The position numbers and the translations under genes were made by a program. Under the pieces are notes generated by a model. It ran no database searches. It was not told the DNA's origin and worked only from the letters and a program-made list of their open reading frames with translations. This document shows positions 15,440 through 20,637 of a stretch of 21,958 nucleotides of DNA, in pieces; the stretch's first letter is position 1; each line of letters begins with the position of its first letter. The stretch covers positions 1-21,958 of the forward strand of contig JAPLKR010000076.1 of the NCBI GenBank assembly GCA_026387965.1, given 5' to 3'. This DNA is from Fusobacteriota bacterium (GTDB lineage: Bacteria > Fusobacteriota > Fusobacteriia > JAPLKR01).

Positions 15440-15895
15440 TTATAATTTTAATTCCATTGGAATATAAATTATTCCATTTAACTCTTGAACACTATTCAAT
15501 GATATAAACCCAAATTTTTTATATACTTCATTGGCATAAATAGATGAATTTAACGTTAGTTTTAAACATTGACGAGATTTACACCTCTCAACAATAAAAC
15601 TCATCAGTTTTTTCCCGATCCCCACATTATGGTACTCTTCTTTAACAAAAAAAAGTGATATATGCGAGTGTTCTTTAAGTGCAATAATCCCAACTAAATT
15701 TCCCTCTTGAAAAAAGCCAAATAACTCAAGCTCATTCGTTTCATGTTTTTTCTTTAACATTTCATAAGAAACAAGTTGTTTAAAAGTTTCAACTCCCTCA
15801 TCAGTAAGGGTTGGTGCTTGAAATTTAATAAAGCACCCCCAGCAAAGTAAGCTTGCTGCATTAATTTCTTCTAAACTATTCAACTCTTTTATCAT
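15440..15895 (-). CDS. GNAT family N-acetyltransferase
   Basis: A 151-residue protein of the GCN5-related acetyltransferase fold, which moves an acetyl group from acetyl-CoA to an amine. The central strand ELFGFFQEGNLVGIIALKE is followed by motif A, LFFVKEEYHNVGIGKKLM, whose NVGIGK fits the (Q/R)xxGx(G/A) pyrophosphate loop with Asn as the first residue. ANEVYKKFGFI is the typical motif B helix and strand. The substrate is unknown. The ATG at 15895 follows AGGAGC by five bases and overlaps the end of engB by 20 bases, so the two are coupled. It lies between engB and valS. Confidence 0.82.
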   Translation of the reverse strand: MIKELNSLEEINAASLLCWGCFIKFQAPTLTDEGVETFKQLVSYEMLKKKHETNELELFGFFQEGNLVGIIALKEHSHISLFFVKEEYHNVGIGKKLMSFIVERCKSRQCLKLTLNSSIYANEVYKKFGFISLNSVQELNGIIYIPMELKL

Positions 15896-16526
15896 GTATC
15901 GCTCCTAATTCTACTGAACCGACTGCTTCACTCTCTTTTTCAAGCACCTCTGTAATACTCTCCCCAACGAATTCTAAAATAGCTTCGCCTCCTGTTTTTT
16001 TCAAACTAGAGTGGAAGAAAACATCTTCATTATCAAATAGTATTCGTGTTCTAATCTCTTTCATTTGTCTAAATTTCTCATTCCCCGATAACTTGTCGCA
16101 TTTTGTAAATACAATTTTAAAAGAAATTTTATAGTGTGCGCACCATTTCAGTATCATCATATCCTCTTCACTGGGAATACGACGAATATCAAGCAGTACA
16201 AAAATCACTTTATAGCGTTCATCCATAAGATAACGCTCCATACTTTTTCCCCACTCTTTTTTCATCTCTTTAGGGACTTTTGCATAACCGTATCCGGGAA
16301 GATCTACAAAATAAAACTGTTTATTTATTTCAAAGAAATTCACAAGTTGAGTTCTACCTGGTGTCTTACTAGTCTTACACAGTTTGTTATGATTGGTTAT
16401 AGCATTGATTAAACTGGATTTTCCGACATTTGAACGGCCCACAAAAGCGAAATCAATTGTGTGTTCAATAGGATATTGATCCGGCCTAGCCGCCGATAGG
16501 ACGTAACTGGCAATATTAATTTTCAT
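15876..16526 (-). CDS. engB: Ribosome biogenesis GTPase EngB/YsxC
   Basis: A TrmE-Era-like GTPase needed for late assembly of the 50S subunit. The start is ATG 16526 (216 residues); an in-frame TTG at 16541 lacks a better ribosome site. Motifs are G1 GRSNVGKS (30-37), the switch region TPGRTQ (55-60), G3 DLPGYG (75-80) and G4 TKCDK (141-145). The product begins MKINIASYVLSAARPDQYP, as family members do. A C-terminal tail of about 25 residues after the GTPase domain, rich in Glu and Val, is a little longer than usual and overlaps the GNAT start. Placement downstream of lon is conserved in Firmicutes (lon-ysxC), though here a terminator and promoter separate them. Confidence 0.95.
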   Translation of the reverse strand: MKINIASYVLSAARPDQYPIEHTIDFAFVGRSNVGKSSLINAITNHNKLCKTSKTPGRTQLVNFFEINKQFYFVDLPGYGYAKVPKEMKKEWGKSMERYLMDERYKVIFVLLDIRRIPSEEDMMILKWCAHYKISFKIVFTKCDKLSGNEKFRQMKEIRTRILFDNEDVFFHSSLKKTGGEAILEFVGESITEVLEKESEAVGSVELGAIHDKRVE

Positions 16527-16603
16527 TTTACCTACTTTCAATTCTAAAGATGAAGTGAGGTTGTATCGCCCCCTCTTTGAATACTTTTCACCTATTTTAC
16601 TCT

Positions 16604-16679: not shown

Positions 16680-17840
16680 TTACACATTTAAGTGAGGAAA
16701 CACAATTTTAGCCACATCATCATATGTTTTTACATAGTGTATGGTTAAATCTTTTGTAACTTCTTTTGGAAGTTTTTTCGCATCACTTCTGTTCTCATCA
16801 GGCAATATGACTGTTCTACATCCAGCACGGTGAGCACCAATTACTTTTTCCAATATCCCCCCTACAGGAAGAACATCCCCAGAGATAGTAATCTCTCCAG
16901 TCATAGCAAGGTCAAAAGGTACAGGGTGCTTCCCGAGCACAGAAATAAATGTCGTCGTAATGGCAATTCCAGCTGAAGGACCATCTTTTGGAACAGCTCC
17001 CTCAGGAAAATGCAAATGAACATCCTCTTTTTCGTAGAAATCTTCAGGTATTTTGTACTCCGCAGCCTTAGAACGCACATAGCTATAAGCTACTTGTGCA
17101 GACTCCTTCATAACATCTCCTAGTTTTCCAGTAAGGCTTGTTTTTCCTTTTCCAGCCATCTTAACACCTTGAACTTCCATAACCATTCCACCAACCGAAG
17201 TCCAAGCAAGACCATTTACTTCACCAATTTTTAAAATATTTTTTCTCTTAGCTTCAGGCTTATATTTTATATCCCCAAGGTAATGTTTCAAATTGGTCTT
17301 TGTAATGTGTACTTTTTTAATATTTTTTTCCAAAACCTCTTTAGCAATTTTTCTACATACTTTGCTGAGTTGTCGCTGTAAAAGGCGTACCCCAGCTTCG
17401 CGCGTATAACCATTGATGATTTCATAGATAGCATCTTTAGAAAAGGTTACACTATACTCTTTCGAAGCAAGACCGTTTTCAGTTACTGCTCTCTCAACTA
17501 AATATCTTTCAGCAATATGAAATTTTTCAATTTCAGTATAACTGTTAAGCTCAATGATCTCCATCCTGTCACGCAGAGGTCCAGGAATATCCCACATATC
17601 ATTTGCCGTTGCTATAAAGAAAACATTTGAAAGATCAAATGGCATATCAATATAATGATCTCCAAAAGTATTATTTTGTTGCGGATCTAATACTTCAAGC
17701 AGTGCAGATGTTGGATCTCCTTTAAAATCAGAAGTGAGTTTATCCACTTCATCAAGTAAAAAGACAGGATTATTCACCCCAGCATTTTTTATTTCTTTCA
17801 TGATTCTTAACAATACGCTCCTTAACCTCTTTAAGACCAT
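16680..17840 (-). pseudogene. lon: lon, C-terminal fragment (rest of AAA+ and protease domain)
   Basis: The second part of the ATP-dependent protease Lon, in a different frame from the first part. Only sequence from about 17807 (RIMKEIKNAGVNNPVFLLDE) resembles Lon; codons before it are N-terminal gene sequence read out of frame. Walker B PVFLLDEVDK, sensor-1 FIATAND, arginine finger PLRDRME and sensor-2 TREAGVR are present. The protease domain is complete: catalytic Ser in PKDGPSAG and Lys in [10 protein letters not shown], 43 residues apart as in normal Lon. The Walker A segment and about 70 residues before the join are absent. AAGGAG at 17818-17823 lies four bases before an in-frame TTG at 17813, so independent translation of this fragment is conceivable. 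It would lack a functional ATPase but keep the peptidase site. Either real decay or an assembly error explains the break. Confidence 0.9.
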
Positions 17841-18795
17841 AATGTTCGTCTTCTAACACTTTCATCGCATAAGTGATATCAAGCATATCTTTTGTCTTTT
17901 TACTCCAAGGAAGCTCAATAATTGTCTCAATATAACTTCTTGAAACAGATGTTTCTGCTGAATAAGCCGGCATTTTTTCAAGTTTTAAAAGCTCTTTTTC
18001 AACTTTTATTTTTACTTCTTTTGGAAGCTTTGCTTTTTCTATCAGTTGACGAAGCTCATCCACTTCATCTTCCATGCTTTCCCCATCACCAAGCTCATCT
18101 TTAATGGCTTTCATCTTCTCACGAAGATAATACCCTTTTTGAAGGTTGTTTATTTGGTCTTTGACTTTATTATCAATCTTCTTTTCAAGACCGACAATCT
18201 CAATCTCTTTTTTGATAAGCTCTAAAATTTGGTACCCAAAGTCATTAATAGATGTAACTTCTAGTAATTTTTGCTTTTTTTCACTTGTTACCATGATATT
18301 TGAAGCGAGTAGATTAAACACTTTTTCTATATCATCGATACTTCTAAGATTTAATATCAATTCCGGCGAAACATTATTAGTCAGTTTGATGTATTTTTCA
18401 AAATTTTCCAACACCTGCCGTTTCAACGCTTCAGTCTCTTCACCTTCTTGTTTCGACACTTCAAGCACTTCATATTCAGTCTCATATAGCTTATTTCCAG
18501 CATTCACTTCAATTAGCTTTACACGATTAATAATTTCCACTAACACCTTAATGGTTCCATCTGGCATTTTTACCGTTTGTAAAACTCTTGCAGAAACCCC
18601 AACCACATTTAAATCTTTTAGTGCATCTGGCGCTTCTTGAAGCTTTTCTTTTTGCATAAATAATAAAAACTCACTAGAATCAGCAATAATTTTTTCTAAT
18701 GTTTCCACACTTTTTTTTCTTCCGACAAAAATTGGGGTAATGACACCTGGAAATACCACCAAATCTCTAATTGGAATAAACAAAGCTCTCTTCAT
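17770..18795 (-). pseudogene. lon: lon, N-terminal fragment ending at an internal deletion
   Basis: The first part of ATP-dependent Lon, which degrades misfolded and regulatory proteins. AGGAG precedes the ATG at 18795 by seven bases, and clpX ends 13 bases upstream. Residues 1 to about 200 form the substrate-binding LAN domain (MKRALFIPIRDLVVFPGVIT at the start), then the helical region with GYYLREKMKAIKDELGD. The protein follows Lon as far as DEHYGLKEVKERIV (about residue 329), just before the AAA+ nucleotide-binding site. After it come 12 unrelated codons and a stop at 17770. Intact LonA is about 770-800 residues; this fragment ends at 341. The join is out of frame with the C-terminal part, and the Walker A region should be where the break is. 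Confidence 0.9.
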
Positions 18796-18808: not shown

Positions 18809-20032
18809 TTATTTCCTCAGTATTTGTATCTTCTCTTTGTCTGTTACACCATTTTCATCAATAATGATTTCTTTAATATCCTCTTCTGAAGGAATATTGA
18901 ACATTAAATCTAGCATGATATCTTCAATAACTGAGCGAAGTCCTCTTGCTCCAGTATTTCTTTTTTTGGAAATTTTGGCGATCTCTATTAAACTCTCTTG
19001 TGTAAACTTAAGTTTTACTCCTTCAAATTCAATTAATTTTTGATACTGTTTAATAATAGAATTTTTGGGTTCCATTAGTATACGCACCAAGGCCTCTTCA
19101 TCAAGCTCAGAAAGAACACTAAGAATTGGAAGTCTTCCAATGAGCTCTGGTATAATGCCAAAATGCACCAAATCTTCAGGAAGAACCTTTTGAAGCACAT
19201 GACTGTTTACATGTTGCTTGCTCTCAATTTTAGCACCAAATCCCATATTTTTGTTAGCTGTTCTTTTACTAATAATCTTTTGAAGACCATCAAAGGCTCC
19301 ACCAACAATAAACAAAATATTTTTAGTGTTAATTTGCACAAACTCTTGCATTGGATGCTTTCTGCCACCTTGTGGAGGAATGTTTGCAACTGTTCCTTCT
19401 ACAATTTTTAATAACGCTTGTTGAACACCTTCTCCAGATACGTCTCGCGTAATGGAGGTGTTTTCTGATTTTCTTGATATTTTATCGATTTCATCAATAT
19501 AAATGATTCCCATTTCAGCACGTTTGGTATCCATATCTGCTGCATGGTAAAGTCTTACAAGAACATTTTCAACATCCTCACCAACATACCCCGCCTCAGT
19601 GAGCGTCGTTGCGTCTGCAATAGCAAACGGTACATTCAATATCTTGGCTAGGGTCTCAGCCATAAGCGTTTTCCCTGTTCCCGTCGGCCCAATCAAGAGA
19701 ATATTGCTTTTTTGCAACTCAACATCAGAATCTTTCTCCAAATTGAGCGAATTGATGCGCTTATAATGATTATACACTGCTACTGCTAGTTGCTTTTTTG
19801 TTTGATCTTGACCAATCACATAATCATCTAAATGTTTTTTGATCTCTTGTGGTTTGAGGAGCGTAATCTCTTGATGCTCGCCCTCTTCTTCATCAAAGCC
19901 ATCTTCGTCGAGTATCATCTCATAACACGCTTCTATGCACTCATTACAAATATATGTATTATTGCCTGCTATTAAACGCTCGACTTCCGACTCTTCTTTT
20001 CCACAAAATGAACATCGTGCTGTTGTGCTCAC
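18809..20032 (-). CDS. clpX: ATP-dependent Clp protease ATP-binding subunit ClpX
   Basis: AAA+ unfoldase that feeds proteins to ClpP. I prefer the GTG at 20032 (407 residues), because GGGAGGG lies just upstream and the product then begins [13 protein letters not shown] like other ClpX proteins; an ATG four codons earlier has a poor ribosome site. The zinc-binding domain has Cys 7, 10, 29 and 32. Walker A GPTGTGKT (115-122), pore loop GYVGED (148-153), Walker [10 protein letters not shown] (176-184) and sensor-2 GARGLR (361-366) are intact. The ClpP-docking tripeptide is MGF (263-265) where most have IGF. It follows clpP and precedes lon, the usual order. Confidence 0.96.
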
Positions 20033-20058
20033 GAGCCCTCCCATATTCTTTTCAAAAA

Positions 20059-20637
20059 TTATATCTTTTGAACAATTTTATCTACAAGACCATACTCTAA
20101 TGCATCTTGCGCTGACATGAAATAATCTCTTTCCATATCATTTTTTAGTCTATCTATTTCAACATTTGTATTCTCAGCCATAATTTCTGTTAGAACCTCT
20201 TTGATTCTTAAGATCTCATTGGTATGAAGTAGAATATCTGTTGCTTGTCCTTGGACACCACCTAGCGGTTGGTGAATCATGATTCTAGAATTTGGAAGTG
20301 AAAAGCGTTTGCCTTTTGCTCCCCCCGCTAAAAGAAATGCACCCATACTGGCCGCCTGCCCAACACAAATCGTTGAAACATCTGGTTTGATATATTGCAT
20401 TGTATCATAAATCGCAAGCCCTGAGGTTACGACTCCACCAGGGCTATTGATATATATAATAATGTCTTTTTCAGGGTCTTGTGCTTCTAGAAACAGTAAT
20501 TGAGCAATCACAGAATTCGCTACCATGTCGTTAATCTCAGATCCTAAAAAAATAATTCTATCTTTTAAAAGTCTTGAGTAGATATCATAGCTTCTTTCGC
20601 CTTGAGCTGTCTGTTCTATCACTACTGGTACGTACAT
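20059..20637 (-). CDS. clpP: ATP-dependent Clp protease proteolytic subunit ClpP
   Basis: Serine peptidase forming the two-ring ClpP barrel that degrades proteins delivered by ClpX. At 192 residues, it is the standard size. The catalytic triad is S97 in [12 protein letters not shown]122 in MIHQPLGG and D171 in ERDYFMSA. The N-terminus [20 protein letters not shown], which carries the axial loop and processing site, is typical. AAGGGG within the last codons of tig lies five bases before the ATG; the two genes are two bases apart. clpX follows after about 26 bases. Confidence 0.98.

Follow-up and report, generated by a model that had tools for sequence, protein, structure and literature searches.

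The single housekeeping lon gene of a draft Fusobacteriia genome is probably inactivated by a recent out-of-frame deletion of its Walker A region

The window analysed here, a 21,958-nucleotide stretch of contig JAPLKR010000076.1 from the draft genome of a Fusobacteriota bacterium (GCA_026387965.1), carries tig-clpP-clpX-lon-engB-valS in an order identical to that in Fusobacterium vincentii. On the minus strand, clpP (20059-20637) and clpX (18809-20044) are intact, matching TIGR00493 and TIGR00382 respectively over their full lengths, in agreement with the intact ClpXP that the first-pass annotation had described; the downstream neighbour of lon, the engB/ysxC GTPase gene (15876-16541, minus strand; PF01926), is likewise intact and is the same neighbour as in F. 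vincentii. Because this gene order matches, we identify the broken gene between clpX and engB as the housekeeping lon.

The lon gene runs on the minus strand from 18795 to 16680 as two open reading frames in different frames, and no single continuous frame spans all of the LonA domains. The upstream frame (18795-17770; 341 amino acids) encodes the LON substrate-binding domain and runs into the first part of the AAA+ module. Its genuine Lon portion, residues 1-329 (17809-18795), comprises the N-terminal substrate-binding domain (PF02190, 2.3e-37), the coiled-coil, and the beginning of the AAA+ module as far as KEVKERIV, and is followed by an out-of-frame tail (17770-17808) of about 12 foreign residues that ends at a premature TAA stop (17772-17770). 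The downstream frame (17840-16680; 386 amino acids as listed) has Lon homology from 17807, where Lon resumes at RIMKEIKNAGVNNPVFLLDE, the first residue being the R of the PGR motif, and reaches the natural end of the protein. This 3' part (16680-17807, minus strand; 375 codons) retains Walker B, sensor 1, the arginine finger region, the lid, and the protease domain, as seen in motif positions and in matches to PF00004 (positions 51-127), PF22667, and PF05362 (9.3e-81), with DGPSAG and the downstream catalytic lysine region intact. The TIGR00763 lon model aligns to the two parts in different frames, with model positions 2-340 at 18780-17806 and 409-795 at 17807-16698.

To place the lesion we aligned the gene with 29 intact Lons, drawn from this class, Selenomonas, and Cellulosilyticum, a comparison the first-pass annotation had proposed for fixing its length and endpoints. 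All 29 have exactly 69 residues between KERIV and the R codon. In their place the window has a single base (17808), bordered by the V329 codon at 17811-17809 and the R codon at 17807-17805; the gap of 69 residues, or 207 bases, less the one base present, therefore corresponds to 206 missing bases, a length of the form 3n+2. DNA matches to relatives place the junction likewise at 17807-17809 on the minus strand, with base 17808 between the in-register parts. In the relatives the lost stretch begins directly behind KERI[LV], ends with the PG of PGR, and takes in everything from GPPGVGKT, the Walker A motif, to MPG, so Walker A falls inside the gap and is absent from lon. The earlier reading, in which Lon is followed normally to about residue 329 and then resumes in another frame after the loss of some 68-70 residues and near 206-209 bases, is thus borne out, with the exact length at the lower end of that range. 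None of the 29 Lons shares this frame without a gap, the one pattern in a relative that the annotation had held to speak against a deletion.

Apart from this gap we found no further lesion in either half of lon. At positions invariant among relatives, the two halves keep 32/33 (97%) and 106/108 (98.1%) of residues, the same retention as in intact lon genes, with no relaxation in either half. Judged from sequence, the break is therefore either very recent or not real, consistent with the first-pass view that both parts are well conserved and the event recent. The gap also appears to be peculiar to this genome: in a survey of the class, lon was matched in 96/98 genomes, among them each of the 79 good-quality ones, and no other lon has the 206-base gap with its frame change. 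A few other genomes of the class do have fragmentary or stop-bearing lon matches, which either lie at the end of a contig or are additional copies.

A lon model search of the assembly, which totals 1.79 Mb in 141 contigs and is 95.5% complete, found no second lon. A candidate on contig C108 was rejected, the only other Lon_C match being RadA. Nor does the missing piece appear to lie elsewhere in the genome, where the Walker A part of the lon model gave only weak generic AAA+ matches, two of them FtsH and ClpB. ClpX, ClpP, FtsH, and ClpB are all complete.

In most respects the two halves together resemble canonical LonA (TIGR00763; MEROPS S16; endopeptidase La), with its N-domain, second AAA+ half bearing Walker B and sensors, lid, and Ser-Lys protease domain, as well as its conserved neighbours clpP-clpX-lon-engB. 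Unlike LonA, the gene here lacks the 69 residues with Walker A and has its halves out of frame, which is why neither half reaches the TIGR00763 cut-off.

The reading we favour, with some confidence, is that the single housekeeping lonA lost its function very recently, when one out-of-frame deletion of 206 bp took out the half of the AAA+ module that holds Walker A. The main alternative, that the organism's lon is intact and the draft joined pieces across some 206 poorly covered bases or took up a minor variant, is the less probable of the two while keeping a substantial share of the probability; the first-pass annotation had likewise set natural loss against assembly error. An assembly or consensus fault would fit a draft of 141 contigs, the universal occurrence of lon among the good-quality genomes surveyed in the class, and the presence of exactly one lesion in a gene whose remainder is fully constrained, as expected of an intact gene wrongly assembled. 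Against such a fault, the site contains no run of N, and no direct repeat long enough for repeat collapse was found at the junction, the longest local direct repeat nearby being 12 nt at 92% identity and lying away from it. Collapse of this kind requires a repeat at both ends and is therefore unsupported; a false join over a stretch that lacked coverage may still have occurred.

Also set against an assembly fault are other genes of the genome broken in decay-like ways. In a gene-break survey that used the proteins of one relative (G073) as queries and, as control, a single genome of F. vincentii at equal median identity, clear breaks were present at 6/210 gene places here, lon counted, versus 1/152 in the control, a small excess; open reading frames covered 0.888 here and 0.919 in the control. 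The six clear breaks affect lon, a glycogen debranching enzyme, a rubrerythrin, a 4Fe-4S protein, a tyrosine recombinase, and one locus on contig C2, a seventh flagged case with a stop near the end of the match having been set aside. In the glycogen debranching enzyme gene (L082:3673-4186, contig C35) about 455 codons are missing internally and the ends that remain are in different frames, and in the XerC/D-like tyrosine recombinase gene (L103:5807-6634, C57) one internal stop interrupts an otherwise well-conserved frame. The rubrerythrin gene (L054:6850-7121, C7) has a frame change and a stop and lies at a contig end, and the gene for the 4Fe-4S membrane protein (L090:8490-8713, C43) has a frame change. 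In the C2 stretch (L049:1893-2390) several proteins of the relative match with internal stops, probably marking decayed genes. Lesions of these kinds are expected in a genome that is losing genes and mildly favour true decay; together with the lack of a junction repeat, they incline us slightly toward a real loss of lon.

If the deletion is real, translation of lon would stop 12 residues past the junction, and the cell would make at most a 341-residue N-domain fragment consisting of the substrate-binding domain and the lead-in to the AAA+ module. The 3' half would encode Walker B, sensors, lid, and protease, but lack Walker A. From established Lon biochemistry no Lon activity would be expected, and protein quality control would presumably be carried by ClpXP, FtsH, and ClpB, all of which are intact.

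Might the 3' part instead be retained as a reduced but useful Lon, translated alone or fused by a +1 frameshift and acting as an ATP-independent peptidase? In favour of this, the protease domain is undamaged and keeps its motifs, and a precedent of sorts is LonC (MtaLonC), a Lon-like protease that lacks ATPase activity and has an intact open reading frame, insertions of its own, and Walker motifs that are altered (PMC3391209); LonC proteases have no ATP-powered unfolding activity (PMC3391209). Such a product could start at either of two ATGs, one at 17840 and one, in frame, at 17801-17799, or could arise as a fusion of about 704 residues if a +1 frameshift took place at the junction. A change of frame cannot, however, bring back the missing Walker A, a -1 slip as read from the sequence would miss the right frame, and RNA structure at the junction is unremarkable (z -0.99). 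We accordingly rejected a programmed frameshift, given that Walker A is not restorable and that the junction RNA is unexceptional; reinitiation at an internal ATG of the 3' part is conceivable but unsupported. The gene shares with LonC a Lon protease domain without working ATP hydrolysis, but its open reading frame is broken, its 3' part is closest to LonA, and its Walker B and sensors remain as they are in a working ATPase, free of the changes seen in LonC. The same form occurs in no relative, whether among the 29 aligned Lons or in the 98-genome class survey. We consider a reduced Lon very improbable, and it would be similarly far-fetched to see here a Fusobacteriia lineage that has just lost Lon during genome reduction and kept the protease half as an ATP-independent peptidase.

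Inactivation of lonA by deletion, the reading we prefer, would not represent a new kind of system, since natural loss of lon is already known. Escherichia coli B and its descendants are Lon-deficient through an IS186 insertion in the lon promoter (PMC7377907), and one report describes viable lon loss-of-function mutants of Pseudomonas aeruginosa (PMC12221181). As in E. coli B, Lon would here have been lost and other ATP-dependent proteases kept; the cause there is IS186 in the promoter, in contrast to a deletion inside the gene. If real, this would add to the known natural losses of a near-universal protease, here in a class with a lon match in every good-quality genome searched, and would offer a useful setting in which to study how ClpXP and FtsH compensate for missing Lon. 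Otherwise it is a caution on inferring gene loss from a draft assembly. Neither outcome alters current understanding.

The relatives recovered by genome search share no rank lower than class with the source organism. A megablast of the lon 3' half against plasmid records found nothing, and the closest named match of this half there, at 57.7%, is a F. vincentii record of 2.1 Mb. Given that match, and relatives that have only the class in common, the organism probably belongs to a separate family or order of Fusobacteriia. The F. vincentii record itself (NZ_CP084075.1) was deposited as a plasmid, pSB055A; tig-clpP-clpX-lon-engB-valS lies on it, and it appears to be the chromosome.
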